Of a DNA stretch of 64,000 nt, positions 45,132 to 59,229 are shown piece by piece. The number at the start of each line of letters is the position of its first letter. Positions within the stretch are counted from its first letter, which is position 1. Origin of the DNA: Lysinibacillus pakistanensis (GTDB lineage Bacteria; Bacillota; Bacilli; Bacillales_A; Planococcaceae); NCBI RefSeq assembly GCF_030123245.1, contig NZ_CP126101.1, positions 1,300,501 through 1,364,500 of the forward strand, in the 5' to 3' direction. The notes under the pieces were generated by a model. It was not told where the DNA came from and did not search any database. It saw nothing but the letters and a program-made list of their open reading frames with translations. The position numbers were made by a program, and so were the translations under genes.

Positions 45132-48100
45132 ATGAGCAAAATATGGAAGTCGGCAGTATCCTTTTTCGCCATCTATTTGTTATTCACACAGACTATATTT
45201 GGCAGTGTATCTGTGCTAGCAGAGTCAAATGGCAGTCCACAGCCAATACTCAACACCATCATGACATCGGATGGGCAGCCCTATAAAGAGGGTGACATCG
45301 CTACAAGTCCTGTTACGATTCAAGTCACAACGTCCACAGCCGATAGTGCCAGTATACAGCTAGAGCTATCCAAGGACAAAGGTGATTCGTGGGAGGAATT
45401 GGATAGCATGGCACCCCTTGTGCTAACTGAGGAGGGTGACTATTATCTTTGGTTTAGAATCAAGGGACAGCAAGCCATCAACAAGCATCATGTTCGTATC
45501 ATACCACGGTTCACTGTATTAGCTGGAAATCATCCGATTTATGTAAATGCAGCATCAACTGGAGGTAATGATGGTAGTAGCTGGAGTAATGCCTTCAAAG
45601 ATTTACAATCAGCACTCAATGCAGCTCAAACAGGGGATGAAATTTGGATTGCCACTGGAACCTATACACCCACAAAGAAGATTTCTGCAAATGATCCACG
45701 TACGGCAACCTTCCAAATGAAAAATGGAGTAGCAATTTATGGAGGCTTTCAGGGAACAGAAACCAAATTGGCTGAGCGTAATGTTCAAGTAAACCCAACA
45801 ATATTAAATGGTCTAGGGGATATTTACCATGTATTTTATCACCCAAATGGCTTGTATTTAGATAGTTCAGCTGTACTTGATGGAGTGACGATTACAGGAG
45901 GGGATGCCAATGGAAGCTTGGAGCATATGTATGGAGGCGGTATGTACAACTGGAGGAGTAGTCCAACCATAACGAATGTAACATTCAATGAGAATAAGGC
46001 AAGCATTGGTGGTGGCATGTACAATGACAACGATAGTAGTCCAACCATAACGAATGTGGGGTTTAGTGAAAATGAGGCAGACTTTGGTGGTGGGATGCAC
46101 AATAATAACTATAGTAGTCCAACCATAACAAACGTGGTGTTTAATGGAAACGAGGCCACCGAAGGAGGGGGAATGTACAATTATCAGAAAAGTAACCCAT
46201 CCTTAACAAACGTAACATTCAATGGAAATAAGGCAAACGTTGGAGGTGGCATGTTCAGTAATACCGCTAGTAACCCAAACTTAACGAGTGTAACATTCAG
46301 TGGAAATAAAGCAAACGCTGGAGGTGGCATGTACAACTGGAGTAGTAGCCCATCCATAACGAATGTAACATTCAATAGGAATGAGGTAACTGCTGATGGT
46401 GGAGGCATATTCAATTATGATAGTAACCCGACACTAACGAATGTAGAGTTTAGTGACAATACAGCAAATTATGGAGGAGTCTTGTACAATATTAATAGTA
46501 GCTTGACACTATTGAATGTAACAATCAGCGGGAATCAGTTGAAGGGAGAGAAAGGTGCAATCGTTGGTGGGAATTCTCAAAGTAAAATTCAAAATAGTAT
46601 TATCGTTGGTAACCATAATAAACCTGCTCTTTCTAACTATACGGGCACGATTGCCAATAGCTTATTGGATGTAGAGGAAAATGGGACTGTACTAGCTAAA
46701 TTTCACAAGTCAAAATCAGATGTAGAAACGGACACTTATCAACCTGAAGATTTATTTATCAATCCAAGTCAGTCTGATTATCGACTAAGAGCAAACTCAC
46801 CAGCTATTAACAAAGGGAACAATAGTGATATTACGATATTAACCGACCTTTCTGGCAATCCTCGTATTCAAGGAGTGAAAATTGATTTAGGTGCATATGA
46901 GGCATTTCCTTATACGGTGACATATCAGGAAAATCGAGCGATAAATGGGGACGTACCAATTGATAAGGAAACATATGATCAAGGACATTCAGTAATTGTA
47001 CAAAGCAATAGTGGCAATCTTGAGAGAGCAGGCTATACGTTTAAAGGTTGGAATACACAAGCGGATGGAAAAGGCACACTTTATGCAGAAAATACAACAT
47101 TCCCAATGGGCAAAGCGGATGTCACATTGTATGCAGAGTGGATGGTGAATCCAACCTACCAAGTTCAATATGATAAGAACGGTGCAACAGGTGGTCAAGT
47201 GCCACAGGATCACAACGAGTATGAAGAAAACGAAATGGTAACAGTCCAAAGCAATAGCGGCAAGCTTGTGAGGGCGGGTTATACGTTCAAGGGCTGGAAC
47301 ACACAAGCAGATGGAAAAGGCACATTCTATGCAGAAAATACAACATTCCCAATGGGTAAAGGGAATGTCACACTGTATGCAGAGTGGACTAAAAAACCAA
47401 CCTATACCGTCACATATGATGCGAACGGTGCAACAGGTGGTCAAGTGCCACAAGATCACAACGAGTATGAAGAAAATGAAATGGTAATGATACAAAGCAA
47501 TAGTGGCAAGCTTATGAGGGAAGGCTATACATTCAATGGCTGGAATACACAAGCAGATGGAAAAGGCACCCCCTACACTGAAAACGCAACGTTCCCAATA
47601 GGCAAAGCAAATGTCACGCTGTATGCAGAGTGGACAAAAAACCAAACCTATACCGTCACATATAATGCGAACGGCGCAACAGGTGGTCAAGTGCCACAAG
47701 ATAATAGCGAGTATGAAGAAAACGAAATGGTAACGGTCCAAAGCAATAGTGGAAAGCTTGTGAGGGAAGGCTATACGTTTAAGGGCTGGAATACACAGGC
47801 AGATGGAAAAGGCACCCCCTACATGGAAAGCGCAATCTTCCCAATGGGTAAAACAAATATCACATTATATGCACAGTGGACAGTAAACCCACCAACAACT
47901 GGTGGAAGCACTACATATCCATCAACATCAAACGACAATGATTTTTCCCCACCAGCACCTGTGAAAATTACGTTTCATACAAATGGTGGCACAACACTAG
48001 CGCCAATCGAGCTTGCATACAATACAAAAGCAAAAGATTTGCCTATCCCAACAAGAGAGGGTTTCTGTTTTGATGGTTGGTATCGGGATGTAACGTTAAC

Positions 48101-48761
48101 CACACTGTGGGCTGAAGATACGCTTGTGAGGGAAAATCTCAAGCTGTATGCGAAATGGACAGTATTGCCAGAAGAAGAATTGGAAAAACCAATAGAACCA
48201 ATAGAACCAATAGAGCCCCACCAGCCATCTGTGGTAACTTTCCAGGATATTGAAAACCATTGGGCCAGAGAAATGATTGCGGCATTAGCAACGCTGGGCA
48301 TTATTAAAGGCTATAAAGATGATACTTTCCGTCCAGATGAGCCGATTAGTCGTCAGCATGTGATGGCACTCTTTTCACGCGCCTTTGAGTTCGAAACAAT
48401 TCGTCCTGCAACTGTCTTTTCTGATGTAGCACCAAATCATATATATTATGATGAGATTATGACCATGCAGAGAGCAGGGATTATCGACGGCACAAATGGT
48501 ATATTCGCGCCAGCAGCCTATCTTACAAGAGCACAGTTAGCAAAAGTTTTAGTGGGTACATTGCGTCTAACACCTGAAGGTAGTAGCTCGTTCAAGGATG
48601 TATCCAGTTCACATTGGAGTGCAGGCTATATTGCAGCACTAGAACGAAGAGGAATTGCCTTGGGGGATAATGGCTATTTCCGTCCTGAGGCTCCTGTTAC
48701 AAGAGCACAATTAGCAGCCTTTTTATACCGAGCAATGCAGCAAGGGACGTCTGAATTTTAA
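45132..48761 (+). CDS. Secreted SLH-anchored beta-helix / InlB-repeat surface protein
   Basis: The 1209-residue protein has a signal peptide (about 1-31, ending SVSVLA-ES), an N-terminal Ig-like segment, a start-of-helix module (about 136-260, IYVNAASTGGNDGSSWSNAF and AIYGGFQGTETKLAERNVQ), a right-handed beta-helix of roughly 25-residue coils (about 265-480, units like GGGMYNxxSSPTITNVTFNxN), four near-identical InlB B-type repeats (about 594-916, ending TLYAEW), a fifth divergent one (about 944-1012), a Pro/Glu linker and three SLH domains (about 1037-1203). SLH domains bind pyruvylated secondary wall polymer. It is likely a surface adhesin or glycan-binding protein. AAAGGAGGAA precedes the ATG. 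Confidence 0.9.
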   Translation: MSKIWKSAVSFFAIYLLFTQTIFGSVSVLAESNGSPQPILNTIMTSDGQPYKEGDIATSPVTIQVTTSTADSASIQLELSKDKGDSWEELDSMAPLVLTEEGDYYLWFRIKGQQAINKHHVRIIPRFTVLAGNHPIYVNAASTGGNDGSSWSNAFKDLQSALNAAQTGDEIWIATGTYTPTKKISANDPRTATFQMKNGVAIYGGFQGTETKLAERNVQVNPTILNGLGDIYHVFYHPNGLYLDSSAVLDGVTITGGDANGSLEHMYGGGMYNWRSSPTITNVTFNENKASIGGGMYNDNDSSPTITNVGFSENEADFGGGMHNNNYSSPTITNVVFNGNEATEGGGMYNYQKSNPSLTNVTFNGNKANVGGGMFSNTASNPNLTSVTFSGNKANAGGGMYNWSSSPSITNVTFNRNEVTADGGGIFNYDSNPTLTNVEFSDNTANYGGVLYNINSSLTLLNVTISGNQLKGEKGAIVGGNSQSKIQNSIIVGNHNKPALSNYTGTIANSLLDVEENGTVLAKFHKSKSDVETDTYQPEDLFINPSQSDYRLRANSPAINKGNNSDITILTDLSGNPRIQGVKIDLGAYEAFPYTVTYQENRAINGDVPIDKETYDQGHSVIVQSNSGNLERAGYTFKGWNTQADGKGTLYAENTTFPMGKADVTLYAEWMVNPTYQVQYDKNGATGGQVPQDHNEYEENEMVTVQSNSGKLVRAGYTFKGWNTQADGKGTFYAENTTFPMGKGNVTLYAEWTKKPTYTVTYDANGATGGQVPQDHNEYEENEMVMIQSNSGKLMREGYTFNGWNTQADGKGTPYTENATFPIGKANVTLYAEWTKNQTYTVTYNANGATGGQVPQDNSEYEENEMVTVQSNSGKLVREGYTFKGWNTQADGKGTPYMESAIFPMGKTNITLYAQWTVNPPTTGGSTTYPSTSNDNDFSPPAPVKITFHTNGGTTLAPIELAYNTKAKDLPIPTREGFCFDGWYRDVTLTTLWAEDTLVRENLKLYAKWTVLPEEELEKPIEPIEPIEPHQPSVVTFQDIENHWAREMIAALATLGIIKGYKDDTFRPDEPISRQHVMALFSRAFEFETIRPATVFSDVAPNHIYYDEIMTMQRAGIIDGTNGIFAPAAYLTRAQLAKVLVGTLRLTPEGSSSFKDVSSSHWSAGYIAALERRGIALGDNGYFRPEAPVTRAQLAAFLYRAMQQGTSEF

Positions 48762-48778
48762 GGCGTCTCTTTTTTTAT
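48744..48778 (+). terminator. Terminator of the surface-protein gene
   Basis: GGGACGTC and GGCGTCTC pair with two G-U pairs across a short loop that includes the stop codon, followed by seven T. Confidence 0.75.
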
Positions 48779-48912
48779 CCCATTCACGAGTATTCAGTTA
48801 TATAAATTATTGTGTAGTATATTGCGGGAAAATACATAAATAAGCGCTTCCCGTACAGGAAAACTTCCTATAAAAAATGCTACAATAAAAGAAAAAAGAA
48901 GAGGCGATGCAC

Positions 48913-49284
48913 GTGAGTAACGTCATTGATTTTATTGCAAAGAAAAAAGAACGTGAAGAAAGGCAGCGTGTTCAAGAATTAGAGCACTATGTTGCAACGC
49001 AGTGTAACTTTGAGCATCCCAGGAACATTGACGCACTTGTTGATGAAAAAATAATCGAAGTGAAAGATCATTCGCTATTTCTAGGTTTTCTATCCATTTT
49101 AAAGGATGAGCAAATTGATCCTCTTGATATTTTTCAGGATGTGTTTACTTTCGAGCCAGCTCACTTTGAGGTGTCCTATAATATGAGATGGTGGTCAGTT
49201 GTCCAGCTTGCCTTTACATTTTTAACAATCCTCAAGGAAAACGAGCCGCATACATATGCAGATTTTCTTGGTTTATCCGAATAA
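48913..49284 (+). CDS. Small soluble protein of unknown function
   Basis: The protein has 123 residues from the GTG at 48913, which has GAGGCGAT at good spacing; the ATG six bases earlier lies too close to that site. The N-terminus is a charged helix (FIAKKKEREERQRVQELEHYV), then a mixed domain with a Trp pair (RWWSVVQLAFTFLTILKEN). No membrane segment or motif is recognised. TACAAT lies about 20 bp upstream of the ribosome-binding site. Its own unit, between the surface protein and the transport operon. Confidence 0.65.
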   Translation: MSNVIDFIAKKKEREERQRVQELEHYVATQCNFEHPRNIDALVDEKIIEVKDHSLFLGFLSILKDEQIDPLDIFQDVFTFEPAHFEVSYNMRWWSVVQLAFTFLTILKENEPHTYADFLGLSE

Positions 49285-49450
49285 CTAGAGTGTGTGCACG
49301 TCTTCAAATGCTATCAAAACGTGCGCATACGCCACTTGGTTTCCCCAATAGTCAACCCCAAACCATTTTAACTTTACAATTCTACCATTCTCAAAATAAA
49401 AATTCATATATTTTATAATTCCTCAATAATTTTTACCGAATATTTTAAAG

Positions 49451-49528
49451 CCCTCCATACTTGCTTAATGTTTGTTTTATAACATTATCGTTGTAAGCAA
49501 ATAAAAATAAACAAAAACAAATGGAGGG
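49451..49528 (+). promoter_or_regulatory. Nested inverted repeats before the organophosphate-type operon
   Basis: CCCTCCAT (49451-49458) is the exact complement of ATGGAGGG (49521-49528), which contains the Shine-Dalgarno sequence of the first gene. Inside it, TTGCTTA (49461-49467) pairs with TAAGCAA (49494-49500), and TGTTTGTTTTAT mirrors ATAAACAAAAACA approximately. TTGCTT and CATTAT (16 nt apart) could be a promoter. T/A-rich GTTT-containing sequences of this kind are common operators of DeoR-family regulators, and one is encoded in the operon. Confidence 0.5.
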
Positions 49529-49536
49529 TCCAACTC

Positions 49537-50625
49537 ATGGCAATGCGAAAGTTGTGGAAGAAAGGTCTTATTGGTGCATTAGCAATTTCAATGTTGGCAG
49601 CTTGTTCTGATAGTTCTTCTGGTTCTAATGAAGTTAATAGTGATTTAACACTTGAAGAAATTACGAAAAAAGCAAAGGAAGAAGGAAACGTTAATTCAGT
49701 CGGTATGCCAGATACATGGGCAAACTGGGTGGAGACTTGGGAAGAGCTTGGTACGGAATATAGCTTAAAGCATAAGGATACAGATATGTCGAGTGCTGAG
49801 GAGCTGGCGAAGTTTGAAGCGGAAAAGGAGGATGCAACTGCCGATATCGGTGATGTAGGAATTGCCTTTGGTCCAATTGCCAAGGATAAGGGCTTAACAT
49901 TACCATTCAAAACGTCTTATTGGGATGAAATACCAGACTGGGCAAAGGATGATGAAGGACACTGGATTGTGGGTTATACGGGAACTATTTCATTTTTAAC
50001 AGATAAAAACAATGTAAAAAACGCTCCTACTTCTTGGGATGACCTTAAAAACGGTGATTATAATGTTAGCATTGGCGATGCACTAACTGCGAATCAAGCA
50101 CAGTTCGCCATTTTAGCAGCTGCGATGGCATTTGGTGGAGATGAATCGAATATTCAGCCAGGGATAGACTTTTTTGCAGACCTAGCAAAGCAGGGGCGTT
50201 TGCAGGGTGATCCTTCTGTGGCGAATTTAGAAAAAGGTGAAATTGATGTAGCCATCCTTTGGGATTTTAATGCGCTAGGCTATCGACACCAAATTGATGA
50301 GCAACGCTTTGATGTAGTTATTCCCTCTGAAGGTTCTGTCACATCAGGCTATGCAACGATTATAAACAAATACGCTAAAAATCCTCATGCTGCAATGCTA
50401 GCGCGTGAATATATTTTATCTGATGCAGGGCAAGAAAATTTGGCGAAAGGATACGCTCGTCCGATTCGTGACAAGGTTCAATTATCAGACGATGTGAAGC
50501 AGCTACTACTACCTTCGAATATGTACAAAAACGCACAGCCAGTGAAAGATCAAAAGAAATGGGAAGAAACAACAAAGCAGATTCCACAACTCTATCAGGA
50601 GCAGGTATTAATTCATGCAAAATAA
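49537..50625 (+). CDS. ABC transporter substrate-binding lipoprotein
   Basis: The 362-residue protein has a lipoprotein signal (lipobox LAAC, Cys about residue 23), a Ser/Asn linker, and a type 2 periplasmic-binding fold of the iron(III)/2-aminoethylphosphonate/spermidine class (LTLEEITKKAKEEGNVNSVG, IGDVGIAFGPIAKDKGL, ILSDAGQENLAKGYARPIRD). Begins a seven-gene set with a phosphodiesterase-like enzyme, permeases, ATPase, DeoR regulator and PHP enzyme. The ligand is not determined by sequence; phosphonate or phosphodiester is suggested by the neighbours. Confidence 0.85.
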   Translation: MAMRKLWKKGLIGALAISMLAACSDSSSGSNEVNSDLTLEEITKKAKEEGNVNSVGMPDTWANWVETWEELGTEYSLKHKDTDMSSAEELAKFEAEKEDATADIGDVGIAFGPIAKDKGLTLPFKTSYWDEIPDWAKDDEGHWIVGYTGTISFLTDKNNVKNAPTSWDDLKNGDYNVSIGDALTANQAQFAILAAAMAFGGDESNIQPGIDFFADLAKQGRLQGDPSVANLEKGEIDVAILWDFNALGYRHQIDEQRFDVVIPSEGSVTSGYATIINKYAKNPHAAMLAREYILSDAGQENLAKGYARPIRDKVQLSDDVKQLLLPSNMYKNAQPVKDQKKWEETTKQIPQLYQEQVLIHAK

Positions 50626-51451
50626 TAAAGTTGTCTTAATAGTCGTAGATGCACTTCGTTTTGATACAGCCTGTACCCATATGGGATTTATGCAACATTT
50701 AGTGGAACGTAAAATTGCCGCACGCTATAAGGTTTGCTCTGAGGTTCCATCATTATCAAGACCTTTATATGAGACGATTTTAACAGGAACACCACCTATT
50801 GTGCATGGTGTCACAAGCAATATGACAGTACGTCTATCCACTCAAAACAGCCTATTTCATTTGGCGAAAGAAAATGGTTTGACTACAGCAGCCGCAGCCT
50901 ATTATTGGGTTAGTGAGCTTTATAATCGAGCACCATTTATGCATATGGAGGACAGGCTACAATTAGATACACAACTACCTATCGAAAACGGCTTGTTCTA
51001 CTTCGAGGATCATTATCCTGACAGTCATTTATTTGCAGATGCTGCTTGGCTAATGGATCAAAAGCAACCTGATTTTCTCTATATTCATCCAATGAATGTA
51101 GATGATGACGGTCATAAATTTACAGCAGATTCTGCACAATATCGAAATCGTGTGTTATCAGTTGATGCATTATTATCATTATTTATTCCAAAATGTCTTG
51201 CACAGGGCTATGAGGTGATTGTCACTGCAGATCATGGTATGACGAGTGATGGGAATCATGGAGGCACAACAGTAGAGGATCGTCATGTACCGATGTTTGT
51301 TATGTCTAAGCGAGTGAAGGCAGGTATAAAGGATGAGATTGTCTCTCAGCTTCAAATAGCACCACTTTGCTGTTATTTATTAGGAATAGAACCTTCCGAT
51401 GAAATGGTTTCACTGTTATTAGAGGGCGTACAGTCCTTAAAAAAAGTTTAG
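50615..51451 (+). CDS. Alkaline-phosphatase-superfamily phosphodiesterase/phosphonate hydrolase-like enzyme
   Basis: The 278-residue protein has the NPP/PhnA-type metal-site pattern: D12 in VLIVVDALRFD, a likely Ser nucleophile (S48 in PSLSRPLYETILTG), NVDDDGHKF, VTADHGM and RHVPMF. There is no signal peptide, so it acts in the cytoplasm on imported substrate. The start overlaps the binding-protein gene by 11 bp. Relatives cleave nucleotide or phosphodiester bonds, or phosphonoacetate. Which bond this one cuts is unknown. Confidence 0.8.
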   Translation: MQNNKVVLIVVDALRFDTACTHMGFMQHLVERKIAARYKVCSEVPSLSRPLYETILTGTPPIVHGVTSNMTVRLSTQNSLFHLAKENGLTTAAAAYYWVSELYNRAPFMHMEDRLQLDTQLPIENGLFYFEDHYPDSHLFADAAWLMDQKQPDFLYIHPMNVDDDGHKFTADSAQYRNRVLSVDALLSLFIPKCLAQGYEVIVTADHGMTSDGNHGGTTVEDRHVPMFVMSKRVKAGIKDEIVSQLQIAPLCCYLLGIEPSDEMVSLLLEGVQSLKKV

Positions 51452-51460
51452 TATGTATGA

Positions 51461-51505
51461 AATATTCGCGCCTTGTACAGGGTCAAGGTTAGAGGCGCGA
51501 ATATT
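51461..51505 (+). other. Intercistronic hairpin without T run
   Basis: AATATTCGCGCCT and AGGCGCGAATATT are perfectly complementary (13 bp), with a further CCTTG/CAAGG inside the loop. ACTACAGG follows instead of T residues. It lies in the 99-bp gap between the phosphoesterase and permease genes and may stabilise the upstream mRNA segment rather than terminate. Confidence 0.7.
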
Positions 51506-51550
51506 ACTACAGGAAACAGCCGCGATTAATTATAGAAAGAAGTGATTGTA

Positions 51551-52384
51551 TTGATATCGAAGCGGCAATCGATTGCCTGGCTATCTCCCTTTGTTGTACT
51601 AGTATTGCTATTTTTTTTAGTGCCGTTGCTGTATATGCTTATCACAAGCTTTCAAAATAGTGATGGATTTACACTTGCACAATATCAATCTGTCCTGACG
51701 AATGGTTATATTTTACAAGGCTTTAAAAATAGTATTACCCTGTCTGTTATTTCAGCAGTGATTGCATTAATCGTTACATTGTTTGCTGTCTATGCAATGA
51801 TGAGGTTTTCTCCGTCAATGAGGGAGAAGATTTTAATACTGACAAACTTAACATCTAATTTTTCAGGTATTCCACTAGCGTTTGCCTTTATTGTTTTACT
51901 TGGTAATAGTGGGTTGTTTACATTGCTATTCGACAAATGGGGTATCGACACACTCTCCTCCTTTTCACTTTATAGCTGGGGTGGCCTGCTACTGATTTAT
52001 ATCTATTTTCAGCTACCGTTAGCATTAATGCTACTTTACCCAATCTATGATGGAATCCAACAACAATGGAAGGAAGCAGCCGCATTGCTTGGAGCTTCTA
52101 CCTGGCAATTTTGGAAAAAGATTGGCATTCCGGTTATGCTTCCTGGGATTGTAGGAACATTTAGTGTGCTTTTTGCTAATGCAATGGGGGCATATGCATC
52201 AGCCTATGCGCTGACAAGCAGTAATTACAATTTGGTGGCCATACGAATTGGTTCACTAATTAAAGGAGATATTTTTGCACAGCCAGAGCTAGCCAGTGCT
52301 ATTGCTGTATTACTTGCGGTAACGATGGTGACGGCAATGTTGTTAAGTGAATGGAGTATTTCAAAAACTAGGAGGAAGCTGTAA
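51551..52384 (+). CDS. ABC transporter permease 1 (CysU/PotB-like)
   Basis: The protein has 277 residues from the TTG at 51551, which has AGAAGTGAT correctly spaced; the GTG three codons earlier overlaps that site. Six membrane segments, and the EAA loop EAAALLGASTWQFWKKIGIP that docks to the ATPase. It is followed directly by permease 2 (TAATG overlap). Belongs to the BPD_transp_1 family used for inorganic and organic anions and polyamines. Confidence 0.88.
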   Translation: MISKRQSIAWLSPFVVLVLLFFLVPLLYMLITSFQNSDGFTLAQYQSVLTNGYILQGFKNSITLSVISAVIALIVTLFAVYAMMRFSPSMREKILILTNLTSNFSGIPLAFAFIVLLGNSGLFTLLFDKWGIDTLSSFSLYSWGGLLLIYIYFQLPLALMLLYPIYDGIQQQWKEAAALLGASTWQFWKKIGIPVMLPGIVGTFSVLFANAMGAYASAYALTSSNYNLVAIRIGSLIKGDIFAQPELASAIAVLLAVTMVTAMLLSEWSISKTRRKL

Positions 52385-53169
52385 TGAAAAAAAGAGGCTT
52401 TGCAGATTTATTTTTCCTCCTGCTTGCACTGTATTTAGTGTTGCCAGTTGTGGCCACAATGCTTTATGCCTTTGCAACGAAATGGAATAAGACGATTTTG
52501 CCAGAAGGACTAACCTTTAAATGGCTAGCAACATTATTTCAAGATGCTGAATTTATACAGGCATTTGGACGCTCTGTTTTATTGTCCTGTGGGGCAGTTT
52601 TGGTTGCGTTGCTCGTCATTGTTCCAGCTATCTTTGTAATTGTCTTGTATTTTCCAAAATATGAGAAGTGGATACAAGTGGCGGTTGTCATGGTCTATTC
52701 ATTTCCAGGCATTATTTTAGCAGTTGGATTAATCCGTGTTTATAGCAAATTAGGTGTCTCCATGATTTTAGTAGTGTTAGGTGCCTATGTGATTGGCATA
52801 CTTCCTTACATTTATCAGGGAACACGCAATAGTTTACGAAATGTAGATGCACGCCAGCTATTAGATGCAGCACAAATATTGGGTGCCTCTAAGTTTCAGG
52901 CATTTACCAAAATATTATTACCAACTGTTTATCCTGGCTTATTTGCTGGTGCGTTATTATCGTTTTCCGTCCTCTTTGGAGAATTTGTATTGATCAATCT
53001 AGTGGTTGGGTCTCGCTTTGAAACCGTGCAAATTTATTTAATGAAAAAGCTTAGTACAAGCGGGCATATTGCCAGTGCAGTTGTTTTTATTTATATCGTT
53101 CTAATGGGAGTATTAACGTTCATTATTGCAAAATTAACGAAACAATCGAAAGGTGCTACAAATGGATGA
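52384..53169 (+). CDS. ABC transporter permease 2 (PotC/PhnU-like)
   Basis: The 261-residue protein has six membrane segments, with EAA-loop DAAQILGASKFQAFTKILLP. It is coupled to permease 1 by a one-base overlap and to the ATPase by ATGA. The pair would form the heterodimeric membrane domain of the importer. Confidence 0.88.
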   Translation: MKKRGFADLFFLLLALYLVLPVVATMLYAFATKWNKTILPEGLTFKWLATLFQDAEFIQAFGRSVLLSCGAVLVALLVIVPAIFVIVLYFPKYEKWIQVAVVMVYSFPGIILAVGLIRVYSKLGVSMILVVLGAYVIGILPYIYQGTRNSLRNVDARQLLDAAQILGASKFQAFTKILLPTVYPGLFAGALLSFSVLFGEFVLINLVVGSRFETVQIYLMKKLSTSGHIASAVVFIYIVLMGVLTFIIAKLTKQSKGATNG

Positions 53170-54167
53170 GTTATATTGTAATTGAAGGACTTCATAAAAA
53201 ATATGGACAATCCACTGTTTTATCAAATATTGAGATGAGTATCGAAAAGGGCGAGTTTATCACGCTTTTAGGTCCTAGCGGCTGTGGGAAAAGTACCATT
53301 TTACGAATTTTAGCAGGCTTAACCGATGCATCTGCAGGGAAAATTCTAATTGAAGGAAAAGATATGCATGATGTTCAACCAAAGGATCGTCAAGTTGGGA
53401 TGGTGTTTCAATCCTATGCACTGTTTCCTAATATGACAGTTAAGGACAATGTTGCTTTCGGCTTGCGAATGCAAAAAATGACTTCCGCTGAGATTGAACA
53501 ACGTGTACAAGAAATGCTAGAGACTGTGCATTTATCAGAAAAGGCACAGGCTTATCCAAAGGAATTATCAGGCGGTCAACAGCAGCGTGTAGCTCTAGCG
53601 CGTGCGTTAATTGTTCGACCAAAGGTATTACTATTGGATGAGCCATTAAGTGCATTAGATGCTCAAATTCGCAAGAAACTGCAGGCAGATTTAAGAGATA
53701 TTCAGCAAAAATTAGGCATTACCATGATTTTAGTCACACACGATCAAGAAGAGGCCATGGCTGTTTCTGACAGAATTTTTGTGATGAATAATGGGATGAT
53801 TGCACAAAGTGGAACACCGACTGCCATTTATACAAGACCGGAAAGTGAGTTTATTGCAAGCTTTATTGGTCATTACAATGTTTTTACACGGCAAACTTTA
53901 GAGAAAATGGTAGGTGAGTTGTTACCCCAAGGTTACTCAAAGTTCGCCATCCGTCCAGAGGCCATCCACCTAGATAGGAGACAGGGGGATGTATCCATGG
54001 CTGGTGTGGCTAAGCAGTCATTTATGAGCGGCAATGTGATTCGTACAATGTTTGAGGGTGACTGCCTCTTTACGATGGAGCAGCTTCACGAGCGAGAGCA
54101 ACAAATCAAAATAAATGAAAAATATATGTGCTATGTGGCAAGGGAAGATGTGATTGCATTATCATGA
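53166..54167 (+). CDS. ABC transporter ATP-binding protein (PotA/PhnT-like)
   Basis: The 333-residue ATPase has Walker A GPSGCGKST, the Q-loop MVFQSYALFPNMT, the signature LSGGQQQRVALA and Walker B LLLDEPLSALD. The C-terminal region after residue 235 is a TOBE-like domain (IRPEAIHL). It is a typical importer ATPase of the spermidine/2-aminoethylphosphonate/iron class. Overlaps permease 2 and the DeoR regulator by 4 bp each. Confidence 0.92.
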   Translation: MSYIVIEGLHKKYGQSTVLSNIEMSIEKGEFITLLGPSGCGKSTILRILAGLTDASAGKILIEGKDMHDVQPKDRQVGMVFQSYALFPNMTVKDNVAFGLRMQKMTSAEIEQRVQEMLETVHLSEKAQAYPKELSGGQQQRVALARALIVRPKVLLLDEPLSALDAQIRKKLQADLRDIQQKLGITMILVTHDQEEAMAVSDRIFVMNNGMIAQSGTPTAIYTRPESEFIASFIGHYNVFTRQTLEKMVGELLPQGYSKFAIRPEAIHLDRRQGDVSMAGVAKQSFMSGNVIRTMFEGDCLFTMEQLHEREQQIKINEKYMCYVAREDVIALS

Positions 54168-54946
54168 CGTATGCAAAAATTGAACGATTCGAATTTATTT
54201 TAAAACAATTAGAGACAGATGGAAAAATTATTGTTGCCAATATTGCGGAAGAGCTACAGGTGGCCCCAGAAACAATACGTAGAGATTTTGATGAGCTAGA
54301 GCAACAACATTTATTAACGCGTGTCCATGGTGGCGCCATTAAGTATACGAATGTGAGAAATGAACCGGCATTTTTGCGCAAGCTGCAAATGCAAAAAGAA
54401 GCAAAGCGCAATATCGCACGCTTAGCAGCAAGGCGTATTTGTGATGGGGATACGATTGCTGTTGATACAGGGACAACGACAGTGCATATAGCAGATTTCA
54501 TCATGGCAGTTAATGATATTACAGTCGTTACGAATTCCATTGCTGCAGCCGTACAGTTTAATTTGGCGATTGAAGAACGGCGAATGACAGGGAAAGTCAT
54601 ACTGCTAGGAGGTACCACAAATCCAAGACAATCCTCAGTTGCAGGTGCGATGACCCTAGAACTGTTAGGGAATATGAATTTTGATAAAGCGTTTTTATCC
54701 TGTGGTGGCATTAGTGAGGGCGTTATTTACGATTATGATTTGGATGAATCACTGATTTCTAAAAAAATGCTTGATCATAGTAAAATGAATTATTTATTAG
54801 CGGATGCCTCTAAATTAAATGGTAGATCCTTTTATCAAATTTGCCATATTGAGGAGTGTACAGAAATTTTTTGTGATATAGCTTGTCCGCTAGAGTGGCT
54901 TGCCTTTGAGGAAAAATGGACGGAATGCAATGGAGGGAAAAGCTAA
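54164..54946 (+). CDS. DeoR-family transcriptional regulator
   Basis: The 260-residue protein has an N-terminal DeoR HTH (IIVANIAEELQVAPETIRRDF and HGGAI) and a C-terminal sugar-phosphate-binding DeoRC domain (DGDTIAVDTGTTTVHIADFI, then VTNSI). DeoR repressors usually respond to phosphorylated sugars or polyols, so the operon probably releases such a compound. I take the ATG at 54164, overlapping the ATPase stop, rather than upstream in-frame codons. Confidence 0.9.
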   Translation: MTYAKIERFEFILKQLETDGKIIVANIAEELQVAPETIRRDFDELEQQHLLTRVHGGAIKYTNVRNEPAFLRKLQMQKEAKRNIARLAARRICDGDTIAVDTGTTTVHIADFIMAVNDITVVTNSIAAAVQFNLAIEERRMTGKVILLGGTTNPRQSSVAGAMTLELLGNMNFDKAFLSCGGISEGVIYDYDLDESLISKKMLDHSKMNYLLADASKLNGRSFYQICHIEECTEIFCDIACPLEWLAFEEKWTECNGGKS

Positions 54947-55953
54947 TGATTGATTATCATGTACATCTAGAGGAGGGGCCTTACTCATTCCGTTGGCTAG
55001 AGCGTACTTCTCAAGCAATGGCATTTTTTAAAGATGAGGATGTTGGAAAAGGATCCAAGGCATCTATAGAAAAGACAATGCAACAGCTGACTAGTCGACT
55101 GCAAAGTGGATGTTATAGTGAGCAATGGCTGGATTTATATTTACAGCAAGCTAAGAAGCTAGGTTTGCGTGAGGTAGGCATTGTAGATCATTTATATCGC
55201 TTTAAGGAGACGCGAGACTATTTCGAGCGTTATATGCAGTTAGACAATACCGAGACAATTGGAAAGATGCAGCGTTACTGGCTAGATAATGTGATGACCG
55301 AGAGTATCGATAATTTTGTGTCAGCAATTATTCGTGCAAAGGAAAAGTGGTGTCAGCATGGGATTGCTTTAAAGCTTGGCATCGAGGCAGATTACTTTGG
55401 TGGAGGTGAGGAAGAATTAGCATCATTCTTGCATAGGTATCCATGGGACTATGTAATTGGCTCCGTTCATTTTGTGGATGGCTGGGGATTTGATAATCCA
55501 CAGACTCAATATATATTTGAGAATATGGATGAGGCTGCATTACAGCAAAGCTATGAGCGATTCTTTGCAACGGTTGAGAAAATGATCCATTCCAAAATGT
55601 TCGATTTTGTAGCGCATTTGGACAATTTTAAAGTATTTGACTATCAAGTGAAAGATGTGGCTTTTCTTGATTCTTGGTATGAGCGAATTGCAAGGGCACT
55701 TGTGGCGGCACAAACAGCGACAGAAATAAATGCTGGCTTATATTATCGCTATCCCGTGAAAGAAATGTGCCCAGGTCCTCGTTTCTTAGATGCATTAATT
55801 AAGCATGGAGTTACTTTTACTGTTTCCTCAGATGCACATTTCCCGGACGATTTAGGAAAGCATACATTTGCCAACGCAGATTTACTAAAAAGTTATGGTG
55901 TTCAATCAATTGTTGGGTTTAATCAACGTCATAAACAATATATAAAATTATAA
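54946..55953 (+). CDS. PHP-domain phosphoesterase (histidinol-phosphatase-like)
   Basis: The 335-residue protein has PHP metal ligands in order: H5 and H7 (DYHVH), VDH (about 84-86), LGIEADY, GSVHFVD, VAHLDNFK, and SSDAHFPDD. This is the trinuclear-metal phosphatase fold of HisJ and YcdX. The start at 54946 overlaps the DeoR stop and follows GGAGGG. Although HisJ-like, it is not beside other his genes, so histidinol phosphate is unlikely; more probably it dephosphorylates the product made by the operon's phosphodiesterase. Confidence 0.82.
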   Translation: MIDYHVHLEEGPYSFRWLERTSQAMAFFKDEDVGKGSKASIEKTMQQLTSRLQSGCYSEQWLDLYLQQAKKLGLREVGIVDHLYRFKETRDYFERYMQLDNTETIGKMQRYWLDNVMTESIDNFVSAIIRAKEKWCQHGIALKLGIEADYFGGGEEELASFLHRYPWDYVIGSVHFVDGWGFDNPQTQYIFENMDEAALQQSYERFFATVEKMIHSKMFDFVAHLDNFKVFDYQVKDVAFLDSWYERIARALVAAQTATEINAGLYYRYPVKEMCPGPRFLDALIKHGVTFTVSSDAHFPDDLGKHTFANADLLKSYGVQSIVGFNQRHKQYIKL

Positions 55954-55959
55954 TGAAGG

Positions 55960-55991
55960 TCGCCGTTGATGAAATCATCGGTGATTTTTTA
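55960..55991 (+). terminator. Terminator of the organophosphate-type operon
   Basis: TCGCCGTTGAT and ATCATCGGTGA pair with two mismatched or G-U positions around a GAA loop, followed by TTTTTT. Confidence 0.72.
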
Positions 55992-55997
55992 TTAGGG

Positions 55998-56100
55998 GTA
56001 AGTGACGGATAGAAATAGCGAACTGGTGGATAGAATCATTTAAATGACGGATAAAAGCGACGAAGTGATGGAAAGCCCTCTCAATTGAGCGAAAGCGTAA
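55998..56100. repeat. Degenerate short tandem repeats
   Basis: About four loosely similar segments of 20-25 bases (AGTGACGGATAGAAA, GGTGGATAGAATC, TGACGGATAAAAG, GTGATGGAAAG). A hairpin CTCTCAATTGAG follows near 56078. Function unknown; possibly remains of an intergenic minisatellite. Confidence 0.45.
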
Positions 56101-56134
56101 TTAAGTCTAAACCACGACATTTAGTACGCAAACC

Positions 56135-56164
56135 TTGTAGGATATAGCAATTATTCAGTATAAT
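56135..56164 (+). promoter_or_regulatory. Candidate SigA promoter of miaB-ricA
   Basis: TTGTAG, an 18-nt spacer and a perfect TATAAT, 57 bp before the miaB start. Confidence 0.65.
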
Positions 56165-56220
56165 AATAAAATGGGAATTCAAATGCATGGAATTCGTTTG
56201 AAAGGAGTTACCTGATTACG

Positions 56221-57765
56221 ATGAATGAGGAACAACGCTTAGCTAATCAACAGATCAATCAACCAAAACATAAAGACAAGCCTGAAAAGGATTATAGTAA
56301 ATATTTTGAAACGGTCTTTACCGCCCCTTCGTTAAAGGATGCAAAAAAACGAGGAAAAGAAGAGGTAAAGTACCATAAGGACTTTAAAATTGCTCAAGAA
56401 TTTGCGGGAATGGGTGTTGATCGTACCTTTTATATTCGTACGTATGGCTGTCAAATGAATGAGCATGATACAGAGGTAATGGCTGGGATTTTTATGCAGC
56501 TTGGTTACACGCCAACGGATAAGATAGAGGAAGCCGATGTCGTGTTGTTGAATACGTGTGCAATCCGTGAAAATGCAGAAAACAAAGTATTTGGAGAGCT
56601 TGGTTTCTTGCTGAAATATAAACGTAAAAATCCAGAAATGCTAATTGGTGTTTGTGGCTGTATGTCACAGGAGGAATCCGTTGTCAATAAAATTTTAAGA
56701 AGCTATCCACATGTTGATATGGTATTTGGTACACATAATATTCACCGTTTACCGAACATTTTAAAAGAAGCCTATATGTCTAAGGAAATGGTCATTGAAG
56801 TTTGGTCTAAAGAAGGCGATGTAATTGAGAATCTGCCGAAGAAACGTCTTGGCTCCATCAAGGCATGGGTAAATATTATGTACGGCTGTGACAAGTTTTG
56901 TACATATTGTATCGTACCATATACACGTGGAAAGGAACGTAGCCGTCGTCCAGAAGAAATTATAGCTGAAGTTCGTGAACTAGCGGCAGCAGGCTATAAG
57001 GAGATTATGCTACTTGGACAAAATGTCAACGCTTACGGCAAGGATTTTGATGATATTGAATATCGATTAGGGGACTTAATGGAAGAATTACGAAAAATCG
57101 ATATTCCGCGGATTCGCTTTACAACGAGTCACCCTCGTGATTTCGATGATCATTTAATTGAAATACTTGCTAAGCGTGGCAATCTAGTGGAGCATATCCA
57201 CTTACCTGTTCAATCTGGTTCCAATGACGTCTTAAAAATTATGGCGCGTAAATATACACGTGAGCATTTCCTTGAACTAGTGGCAAGGATTAAGGCAGCT
57301 ATTCCTGAAGTGACGCTGACAACAGATATTATTGTTGGCTATCCAAATGAAACAGAGGAGCAGTTTGAGGAAACGCTTTCCTTATACCGTGAAGTTGGCT
57401 TTGAATCAGCCTTTACGTACATTTATTCTCCTCGTGAGGGTACACCTGCTGCAAAAATGGTGGATAATGTACCTGAGGAAGTAAAAAAACAGCGTCTTCA
57501 ACGATTAAATGAGGTTGTAGCGGAATATTCTCGTAAATCATTAGAGGGCTTGAAGGGTCAGATAGTAGAAGTATTGGTCGAAGGGACAAGTAAAAGACGC
57601 GAGGATGTACTAGCTGGCTATACGCGTAAAAATCGTCTTGTCAACTTTAAAGCACCAGCGCATTTAATTGGACAATTAGTAAATGTAAAAATAATTGAGG
57701 CTTCCTCGTATTCATTAAGTGGTGAATTTGTTGAAGTCGTAAAAAATGAAAAGGTGGAAATATAA
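56221..57765 (+). CDS. miaB: tRNA-2-methylthio-N6-dimethylallyladenosine synthase MiaB
   Basis: The 514-residue methylthiotransferase has an N-terminal UPF0004 domain with its three cluster Cys ([23 protein letters not shown]), a radical-SAM domain with C223-x3-C227-x2-C230 (GCDKFCTYC) and a C-terminal TRAM domain. It methylthiolates i6A37 of tRNAs in two SAM-dependent steps. The N-terminal extension of about 65 residues is typical of the Bacillus protein. It is followed by ricA with no gap. Confidence 0.97.
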
Positions 57766-58460: not shown

Positions 58461-58581
58461 CATTGATGCTTTCTTTCTATGGCAATCCCGTAAATCCCCA
58501 ATCTTCAAGTCATTTAGATAAAATTCTATGAAAAGGAATGTTATGCCGAGGCATAATTGATTTCTATAAAAATATATGTTC

Positions 58582-58609
58582 ACCCAATGGGCGCTACCTG
58601 CATATGATG
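58582..58609 (+). promoter_or_regulatory. Candidate sporulation-sigma promoter of cotE
   Basis: AC (58582-58583) and CATATGATG (58601-58609), 17 nt apart, resemble SigK; CATATGAT also resembles a SigE -10. B. subtilis cotE uses both. The match is weak. Confidence 0.35.
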
Positions 58610-58638
58610 GAGTGAAAAGAGTCGAAGGAGGAATTGCG

Positions 58639-59229
58639 CTGAAACGTTTACGACATATCGTGACGAGAGCAGTAGTTGCCAAAGGGAAGAAGAAAACGGA
58701 AGAACGTGTAACATTAAGTCCATCAAATAAACCGACAAGTATTCTTGGATGCTGGGTTATTAACCATACTTGCTCCGCAAAAAAAGTCGGTAAATTTGTA
58801 GAAGTATCAGGGAAATTTGATGTTAATGTATGGTATGCCTATAGTAATCATTCGAAAACAGCAGTGTTTTCTGAAACGGTTCACTATAAAGACAAAGTGA
58901 AGCTTCATTTTAGAGATGGCGATGTAAGTGCTGGTGATGATGTTCGTGTACGTGTTATTCAAGAGCCAAATTGCATAGAGGCTATCATCTCTCCATGCGG
59001 CACGAAATTTGAAATCGTTGTTGAGCGTGAAGTAGTTGTAGAGGTTATGGGAGAAACGACAATTTGTATTAGTGTACATCCACTAGATTTTGAAGAAGAA
59101 TGGAACTTTAATGATGAGAGTTCATCCTCATCTTCCTCTAGCTCCAGTTCCAGCTCATCGTCTAGCTCGAGTGGAGAAGGAAGGTATGTTTTAGAGTCCT
59201 CATCGTTTCCTGATGAAAGACCAAGATAA
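58639..59229 (+). CDS. cotE: Spore outer coat morphogenetic protein CotE, apparent CTG start
   Basis: CotE directs assembly of the outer spore coat. The product, 196 residues from 58639, has conserved segments ITxAVVAKG-like (HIVTRAVVAKG), SILGCWVINH, KVGKFVEVSGKFDVNVWY and VRVRVIQEPNC. AAGGAGG (58625-58631) is 7 nt before CTG at 58639, and starting there aligns the N-terminus exactly with B. subtilis CotE length. No ATG, GTG or TTG lies in frame near that site; the ATG at 58576 has no ribosome-binding site. The C-terminus has 18 consecutive serines. Confidence 0.85.
   Translation: MKRLRHIVTRAVVAKGKKKTEERVTLSPSNKPTSILGCWVINHTCSAKKVGKFVEVSGKFDVNVWYAYSNHSKTAVFSETVHYKDKVKLHFRDGDVSAGDDVRVRVIQEPNCIEAIISPCGTKFEIVVEREVVVEVMGETTICISVHPLDFEEEWNFNDESSSSSSSSSSSSSSSSSSGEGRYVLESSSFPDERPR
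59119..59172 (+). repeat. Run of 18 serine codons in cotE
   Basis: Codons TCA, TCC, TCT, TCG, AGC and AGT are mixed with no simple DNA period, so the run is not microsatellite slippage but is maintained at protein level. It replaces part of the acidic tail found in B. subtilis CotE. Confidence 0.9.

Follow-up and report, generated by a model that had tools for sequence, protein, structure and literature searches.

A conserved seven-gene cluster of Lysinibacillus pakistanensis as a candidate operon for scavenging amino-alcohol phosphodiesters

A 64,000-nucleotide stretch of Lysinibacillus pakistanensis DNA (G000:C1:1300501-1364500 of a 5.25-Mb genome; hereafter the window) carries seven co-directional genes at positions 49537-55953, encoding a binding lipoprotein, an NPP-type phosphodiesterase (NPP), two ABC permeases, an ABC ATPase, a DeoR-type regulator, and a PHP-domain phosphatase. 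It appears, with moderate confidence, that this operon scavenges a phosphodiester with a 2-amino alcohol, most likely a deacylated phospholipid such as glycerophosphoethanolamine; glycerophosphoserine and glycerophosphocholine are possible as well. The parts of this reading differ in strength. A scheme of import, cleavage, and dephosphorylation is very probable, an amino-alcohol head group is reasonably likely, and glycerophosphoethanolamine in particular is a tentative choice. The lipoprotein and the ABC importer would carry the diester in, and cleavage by the NPP on the side of the glycerol would yield an amino alcohol with an O-bound phosphate, for example phosphoethanolamine. From this product the PHP enzyme would release inorganic phosphate and the amino alcohol, and the DeoR regulator would be relieved by a pathway intermediate. 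The original prediction likewise had a compound imported, cut, and dephosphorylated, with the intermediate as inducer. It is supported in part. The analysis shows the gene content, its conservation, the intact catalytic residues, the links to enzymes of aminoethylphosphonate and D-serine, and the exchange of the second phosphatase, while the substrate, the direction of cleavage, and the inducer are what we infer from sequence.

The seven genes are all open frames (Table 1). Successive genes are spaced by -11, +90, -1, -4, -4, and -1 nt, with the ATG starts of DeoR (54164) and PHP (54946) read from the sequence. Open frames and family matches thus bear out the predicted gene set and its family calls (SBP_bac_6, PF01663 Phosphodiest, two BPD_transp_1 permeases, ABC ATPase, DeoR, and PHP), and the prediction that neighboring genes overlap by 1-11 bp, with one junction of the six as exception, is exact; that exception is the junction from NPP to permease 1. 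Neither the importer proteins nor the NPP reached an NCBIfam equivalog cut-off in the matches shown, and naming a function by match alone was therefore rejected. The importer differs from PhnSTUV and PhnS2-T2-U2 in that all its matches lie below the equivalog cut-offs (given as bits/cut-off here and throughout): PhnS 32.6/395.3, phnS2 32.7/392.75, PhnU2 67.3/593.25, PhnV 66.5/358.7, and PhnT2 (Table 1).

The seven-gene arrangement is conserved far beyond chance. An alignment of the NPP was used to draw 80 loci of Bacillales taxa from GTDB contigs (compared homologous loci are labeled L002-L165 and genomes by G-numbers), and a gene was counted if its best match exceeded 80 bits and lay no more than 7 kb from the NPP gene. 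All seven genes were found in 70 of the 80 loci, and these complete loci display three gene orders: that of the window (63 loci), NPP after DeoR (4), and NPP first (3). The check for co-conservation across Bacillales therefore came out in favor of the original prediction. The incomplete loci lack PHP in eight cases, DeoR in three, and each transporter gene in two. Three of the eight (L067-L069) have a HisJ-like gene in the place of PHP, which the counting rule scores as PHP missing; no PHP was scored in L040, L059, L060, and L076. Cohnella L071 keeps only NPP and PHP, and Neobacillus L063 has NPP alone. Beyond the seven, every gene family is confined to at most 15 of the 80 loci; the commonest are those in Lysinibacillus loci, and most of the recurring families were left unnamed. 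Within the organism's own family, 25 of 121 genomes have an NPP match (E 1e-20), and the nearest relatives of the window's NPP are those of Lysinibacillus. In 21 of these 25 genomes a PHP gene matching NF005235 lies on the same contig within ~5 kb, and those without a linked PHP are G011, G015, and G072 (no match) and G120 (an unlinked, weak match of 46 bits). Five further genomes have the PHP gene, with NPP 4-5 kb away in G136, G172, G189, and G192 and none in G083. This co-occurrence indicates that the set is patchy yet inherited as a unit.

How far does the NPP itself point to a substrate? Its ligand set, PF01663 match, and fold place it in the NPP/ENPP branch, and its structure model (pLDDT 95.1) has the NPP/ENPP fold. 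The metal and nucleophile set D12, S48, D163, H167, D206, H207, and H215 is identical in 16 of 16 NPP sequences, the window's included, that were picked by hand to span contexts. Among the ENPPs, ENPP6 alone is described as using serine as its nucleophile; this residue, Ser71, packs on Tyr75, and the two are described as ENPP6-specific (PMC4757880). The choline pocket of ENPP6 consists of Tyr72, Tyr75, Tyr157, Tyr188, and Glu190 (PMC4757880). In a profile alignment, Ser48 and Tyr52 of the window's enzyme fall on Ser71 and Tyr75 of ENPP6, and both are identical in all 16 sequences, including the phosphonate-linked NPPs.

The phosphatase that accompanies the NPP is more variable. The window's protein belongs to the PRK06740 PHP family (NF005235, Table 1), a type found in most Bacillales loci, and its residues H5, H7, H82, E147, H175, H224, D296, and H298, which we take to be metal ligands, are conserved in at least 97% of 73 sequences. 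It falls well outside the histidine-biosynthetic HisJ family (PRK08123; NF005996, 39.5/133). The genome encodes a separate true HisJ (363.6/133) at G000:C1:3926615, ~2.6 Mb away, which agrees with the earlier remark that the HisJ-like enzyme is not beside histidine genes. In Sporolactobacillus L067, a true HisJ (PRK08123, 337.2/133) overlaps the ATPase gene, and HisJ is also present in L068; each is the only match of its model in its genome (G611 and G612). A PRK07329-type PHP (303.6/303) is divergent to the Enterococcus faecium cluster. The Vibrio and Pseudomonas aeruginosa clusters have a HAD-IB protein whose best named model, the HAD histidinol-phosphatase NF052360 (177/280), indicates kinship and not membership. 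In clusters L161-L165, which comprise the four NPP genomes without a linked PHP and a second cluster of G032, the gene after DeoR encodes in five of five cases a HAD protein of 288-297 amino acids, which in the two scanned is Cof-type HAD-IIB (199.9 and 208.9/137) and nearest a sugar phosphatase. The presence of different folds in the phosphatase slot indicates that the conserved element is the reaction, namely phosphate removal from the NPP product. Both kinds of cluster, PHP-type and Cof-type, are present in G032, which makes it probable that each handles a different head group. No phosphatase was found among the scanned neighbors of L138, and the PhoA-type alkaline phosphatase that follows the ATPase in L139 was not counted as a slot filler because such enzymes are usually secreted. 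As a separate observation, thiaminase II (tenA), thiM, and thiE follow the PHP-less cluster of Paenibacillus alvei (L040:14720-17797), and thiM is near the cluster in L045.

The importer and NPP extend well beyond Bacillales. The window's NPP is 50.6% identical to that of E. faecium L149, 49% to that of Vibrio sp. L150, and 47% to that of P. aeruginosa L151, and NPP relatives were present on 179 Enterococcus plasmid records (72,556 searched; one context read). On the E. faecium FB-1 plasmid the binding-protein frame is split into two overlapping, unannotated open reading frames (L149:7897-8996); those of the NPP, permease, and ATPase run uninterrupted. Pseudomonas and Vibrio records hold NPP relatives with the same importer genes, and L150 and L151 share the order regulator (divergent), binding protein, NPP, permease, permease, ATPase, HAD phosphatase. 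L151 is flanked by minCDE upstream and a carboxy-terminal protease downstream, and from these neighbors we take it to be PA3249-PA3255 of PAO1. For PAO1 starved of phosphate, PA3250 has been listed as one of the major exoproteins, a record of presence and not of induction (PMC4899797). The binding proteins of the compared Bacillota and Pseudomonadota clusters are 54-60% identical, which argues for one ligand class. The exception is L140, whose binding protein is 35-45% identical to all others compared and scores 76.5-86.6 bits with PhnS-family models, versus 32.6-38.8 bits for the window's. A solved homologue of the binding protein is available from Campylobacter (5t1p) and has no assigned function; presumably it is Cj0727 and the cj0727-cj0732 operon includes an NPP. 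That Campylobacter jejuni operon is likewise described without an assigned function (PMC7176700).

Some relatives of the NPP are linked to phosphonate genes. In L140 a binding protein, two permeases, an ATPase, an NPP (49% identical to the window's), PhnX (345.9/220), PbfA (712.8/525), and PhnW (572.8/400.8) are encoded in this order on one strand. In Labrenzia L152 the order is TmpA (351.8/300), TmpB (577.5/400), and NPP (34% identical to the window's), with a 4-bp overlap of TmpB and NPP. In Mesobacillus L041 genes for a PhnD-like protein, PhnW (534.5/400.8), and PhnX (362.1/220) end 2 kb before the seven-gene cluster, with one small open reading frame in between. The only role seen for the NPP in these three loci would be the hydrolysis of an ester so that aminoethylphosphonate, or its trimethyl form, is released. 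The original prediction held that the operon differs from known phosphonate operons; this is true of the window, but relatives of its NPP do occur in phosphonate operons elsewhere. An NPP accompanies TmpA on three of eight TmpA plasmids, all from Labrenzia and with an identical NPP. The 25 PhnX plasmid records listed (50 matched) have no overlap with the listed NPP records (40 of 204, 60 of 201, and 40 of 199), which suggests that the phosphonate link is occasional. In the order of G389, two of 22 genomes have an NPP match and no further phosphonate operon was seen (L137 is cut by the contig end), and the NPP of L140 has no match in phages.

What do these neighbors have in common? Aminoethylphosphonate, its trimethyl form, histidinol phosphate, and phosphoserine all have a 2-aminoethyl group next to the phosphorus or phosphate; histidinol phosphate and phosphoserine are substituted phosphoethanolamines. 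This common denominator suggests that the NPP opens an ester of a 2-amino alcohol or of the corresponding phosphonate. Because the window's PHP is of the HisJ family and no phosphonate or serine gene is present in the operon, phosphoethanolamine derived from glycerophosphoethanolamine is the simplest guess. More speculatively, the NPP-importer module may handle amino-alcohol phospho- and phosphonodiesters in general, while the enzyme encoded downstream varies to suit the head group. PHP, HisJ, and HAD phosphatases would serve phospholipid remnants, PhnX-PbfA-PhnW or TmpA-TmpB would serve esterified aminoethylphosphonates such as deacylated phosphonolipids, and the Cof variant (L161-L165) would use D-serine ammonia-lyase. 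In L161-L165, which come from three genera (g12, g14, and g15), a gene for a D-serine ammonia-lyase-like protein of 446-453 amino acids with a near-identical N-terminus lies downstream on the same strand; the copy that was scored, that of L164, matches D-serine ammonia-lyase (714.1/246). In L161-L163, genes for two small multidrug-resistance-type proteins lie between the Cof-type phosphatase gene and this gene, and their best model is SugE (110.4, 121.5, 112.5 and 76, 79.6, 76.9 bits; cut-off 126). The genes of these five clusters are on one strand with short gaps and look operon-like. SugE exports guanidinium, and lombricine, the earthworm phosphagen, combines D-serine, a guanidino compound, and a phosphodiester. 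On these grounds the Cof variant, which has the SugE-like pair in three of its five loci, could serve the use of lombricine as food. Its candidate substrate would be lombricine, itself a doubtful choice, or some other phosphodiester of D-serine.

Regulatory elements were examined upstream of and within the cluster. An alignment of the window with 18 loci (L002-L019) shows strong conservation over the ~100 nt that precede the start codon. The dyad TTTGTTTTGTAT-N12-ATACAAAACAAA is strong in L026, L028, and L033 (equaled in 0-1 of 100 shuffles), whereas the window's own best dyad is no better than chance (97 of 100 shuffles). A Pho-box scan (four TTHACA units, period 11) covered 75 of the 80 loci, leaving aside L046, L063, L065, and L071, in which three listed anchor genes are missing, and L077, whose upstream region is short. 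Upstream windows began at the first start codon of the open reading frame and the 464 control regions are partly coding, so that shuffles are the fairer control. The mean score was 18.1 versus 16.0 in shuffles, and 28 of the 75 loci beat all 30 shuffles; a score of at least 19 was reached by 40% of the 75 cluster upstreams versus 0.4% of the control regions. The Vibrio and P. aeruginosa clusters are headed by PhnR-like regulators (269.7 and 283.5 bits; cut-off 296.75). Rfam gave no match in 48700-56300, and no riboswitch was matched (E 0.1) either around the operon or in L161-L165, where this includes the guanidine riboswitch. The hairpin between NPP and permease 1 (Table 1) may set the level of the mRNA for the binding protein and NPP. 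Its core pattern has a single exact match in the genome, some Lysinibacillus loci (L010, L013, and L014) have hairpins of other sequence at the same junction and other loci lack one, and the gap at this junction varies from 36 to 564 nt in L002-L016. The scan that located the terminator-like hairpin gave 10 sites in the region versus 6.3 (standard deviation 2.8) in shuffles.

Table 1. Coordinates of the cluster genes, of sequence elements in the window, and of the Cof-type extensions in related loci
Feature	Coordinates	Strand	Basis or remark
Binding lipoprotein (SBP_bac_6), 362 amino acids	49537..50625	+	family match
NPP-type phosphodiesterase, alkaline phosphatase superfamily, 278 amino acids	50615..51451	+	PF01663, 79.7/23
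ABC permease 1	51542..52384	+	PF00528; nearest NCBIfam PotC, PhnU2, both below cut-off
ABC permease 2	52384..53169	+	PF00528; nearest models PotC, PhnV, both below cut-off
ABC ATPase	53166..54167	+	best NCBIfam PhnT2, 390/457.7
DeoR/GlpR-type regulator	54164..54946	+	PF08220 (HTH_DeoR) and PF00455 (DeoRC)
PHP phosphatase, HisJ family	54946..55953	+	NF005235, 495.6/442; TIGR01856, 98.1/90.2
Upstream block conserved in Lysinibacillus/Metasolibacillus-type loci	49432..49530	+	candidate DeoR operator
Degenerate Pho-box-like stretch	49432-49470	+	part of upstream block
Intercistronic hairpin NPP/permease 1	51461..51505	+	13-bp perfect arms, 19-nt loop, no T-run
Terminator-like hairpin after last gene	55964..55983	+	consensus scan
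Cof phosphatase and D-serine ammonia-lyase-like extension	L161:8502-11525		
Cof phosphatase and D-serine ammonia-lyase-like extension	L162:894-3895		
Cof phosphatase and D-serine ammonia-lyase-like extension	L163:8469-11513		
Cof phosphatase and D-serine ammonia-lyase-like extension	L164:8637-10876		
Cof phosphatase and D-serine ammonia-lyase-like extension	L165:8403-10807		

Among the closest known systems is AepSTU of Pseudomonas putida BIRD-1. Here, 3891 is AepS, and a triple importer mutant without AepSTU fails to grow on 2-aminoethylphosphonate as phosphorus source (PMC8316502). AepSTU is called auxiliary, constitutive, and phosphate-insensitive (PMC8316502, PMC9311074). In phosphate limitation, the GntR regulator 3890 and the ATPase 3895 rise and are undetected in a phoBR mutant, and the binding protein 3891 rises without PhoBR (PMC5082522). 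PPUBIRD1_3891 (PMC8316502, PMC5082522) shares the binding-protein domain pfam13343 with the window's protein. The locus numbers fit the L151 order, with GntR (3890), binding protein (3891), three further genes, and ATPase (3895), and the binding proteins of L151 and the window share 58-61% identity. This match of order (regulator, binding protein, three genes, ATPase) leads us to infer that AepSTU is the same system; it is probably the same importer as that of the cluster, on grounds of synteny and not of sequence. To our knowledge, AepSTU-dependent growth on 2-aminoethylphosphonate is known from P. putida only. The available text of the AepSTU papers on the operon mentions neither an NPP nor a phosphatase.

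Vertebrate ENPP6 releases phosphocholine, and a proposal has a separate phosphatase act after it (PMC4757880, PMC7872340). The ENPP6 to PHOSPHO1 route, from glycerophosphocholine to phosphocholine to inorganic phosphate, is alike in its NPP-fold diesterase with a serine nucleophile and its separate phosphatase; it differs in having no importer. The UgpBAEC system with UgpQ/GlpQ differs as well. Ugp has a different binding-protein class, its GDPD enzyme gives glycerol-3-phosphate, and the UgpC model gives only 313 of 432 bits. The predicted difference from Ugp therefore stands, with SBP_bac_6 and NPP in place of the Ugp-class protein and GDPD. No paper on an NPP-phosphatase pair with this importer was found in the open-licence literature searched. 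The operon type is known; the combination of an SBP_bac_6 importer, an NPP, and exchangeable downstream enzymes is new.

Some observations weigh against the amino-alcohol diester. The fold of the modeled NPP fails to single out ENPP6. ENPP6 is the top Foldseek hit of the model but is tied with Xac NPP (E 1.4e-14 versus 1.9e-14), so its rank was given no weight alone, and VIA-align, which covers listed families and leaves unlisted ones open, ranks Xac NPP (31.2) and ENPP7 (30.6) with ENPP6 (27.7). Tyr72, Tyr188, and Glu190 of the ENPP6 pocket are replaced by Arg49, His158, and Met160 in the window, and Tyr157 is unaligned; the bacterial family keeps only Tyr75 of the four alignable pocket residues. 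Other conserved acidic and aromatic residues might serve instead. Furthermore, the phosphonate links are few, and the window's Pho-box score of 17 is reached by 70 of 200 shuffles.

One alternative is a diester with an amino-free alcohol, such as glycerophosphoglycerol, glycerophosphoinositol, or a teichoic-acid fragment, whose phosphorylated polyol induces DeoR and is then dephosphorylated by PHP. Regulators of the DeoR type typically respond to phosphorylated sugars or polyols, polymers of glycerol phosphate are part of Bacillales cell walls, and the Cof phosphatase that replaces PHP in L161-L165 resembles a sugar phosphatase. However, such a substrate leaves the links to aminoethylphosphonate, trimethylaminoethylphosphonate, and D-serine unexplained, as well as the PhnR-like regulators, and it is unlikely. 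It is rather less likely that the importer serves 2-aminoethylphosphonate or an amino-alcohol monophosphate, with the NPP acting on a monoester or as a PhnA-like C-P hydrolase. Its appeal is that P. putida can use AepSTU to grow on 2-aminoethylphosphonate (PMC8316502) and that the binding protein has PhnS-family matches, but the auxiliary role of AepSTU fits a side substrate. The phosphonoacetate hydrolase PhnA was rejected as an identity for the NPP, as its model TIGR02335 gives only 29.2 of 407.55 bits. In L140, moreover, PhnX and PhnW already break aminoethylphosphonate, which would make an NPP that cleaves C-P bonds superfluous, and another phosphatase accompanies the NPP in most clusters seen.

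Could the NPP instead cleave an imported nucleotide-type ester, such as CDP-ethanolamine, CMP-aminoethylphosphonate, or nucleotide sugars? Its fold is that of nucleotide pyrophosphatases, but outside the seven even the commonest of the mostly unnamed families is limited to 15 or fewer of the 80 loci, and we know of no SBP_bac_6 importer of nucleotides; this reading is improbable. Ferric or thiamine uptake with unrelated hydrolases is the least credible explanation and would be a considerable surprise.

Upstream of the operon are a large gene and a small open reading frame without a family match; the large gene presumably encodes a surface protein, and we take the downstream neighbor to be miaB. 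The large gene (45132-48761) encodes a 1209-residue protein with repeated segments and what we assume to be SLH-like C-terminal domains. The open reading frame at 58576-59229 ends in a C-terminal run of 18 serines and is presumably CotE-like, judged by its position between a ricA-like gene and mutS. Rhizobial NPP relatives (L154 and L155, 32-33% identical to the window's; also L153, L156, L157, L159, and L160) were left out of the argument; their neighbors are either a binding protein of oligopeptide size with a MocR-like regulator or uninformative. In other Bacillota (L141-L144, L146, and L147), NPP-domain proteins of 540-621 amino acids have no importer match beside them; the NPP domain is in the N-terminal part in L141:6882-8504 and L144:6183-8015.

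Much organic phosphorus is held in the head groups of phospholipids and in phosphonolipids. The proposed substrate class would assign a role to the operon in Bacillales, on Enterococcus plasmids, and in Pseudomonas, Vibrio, and Campylobacter. If the reading is true, the auxiliary role of AepSTU in the use of 2-aminoethylphosphonate would be explained, and esterified natural phosphonates would gain a possible entry route.

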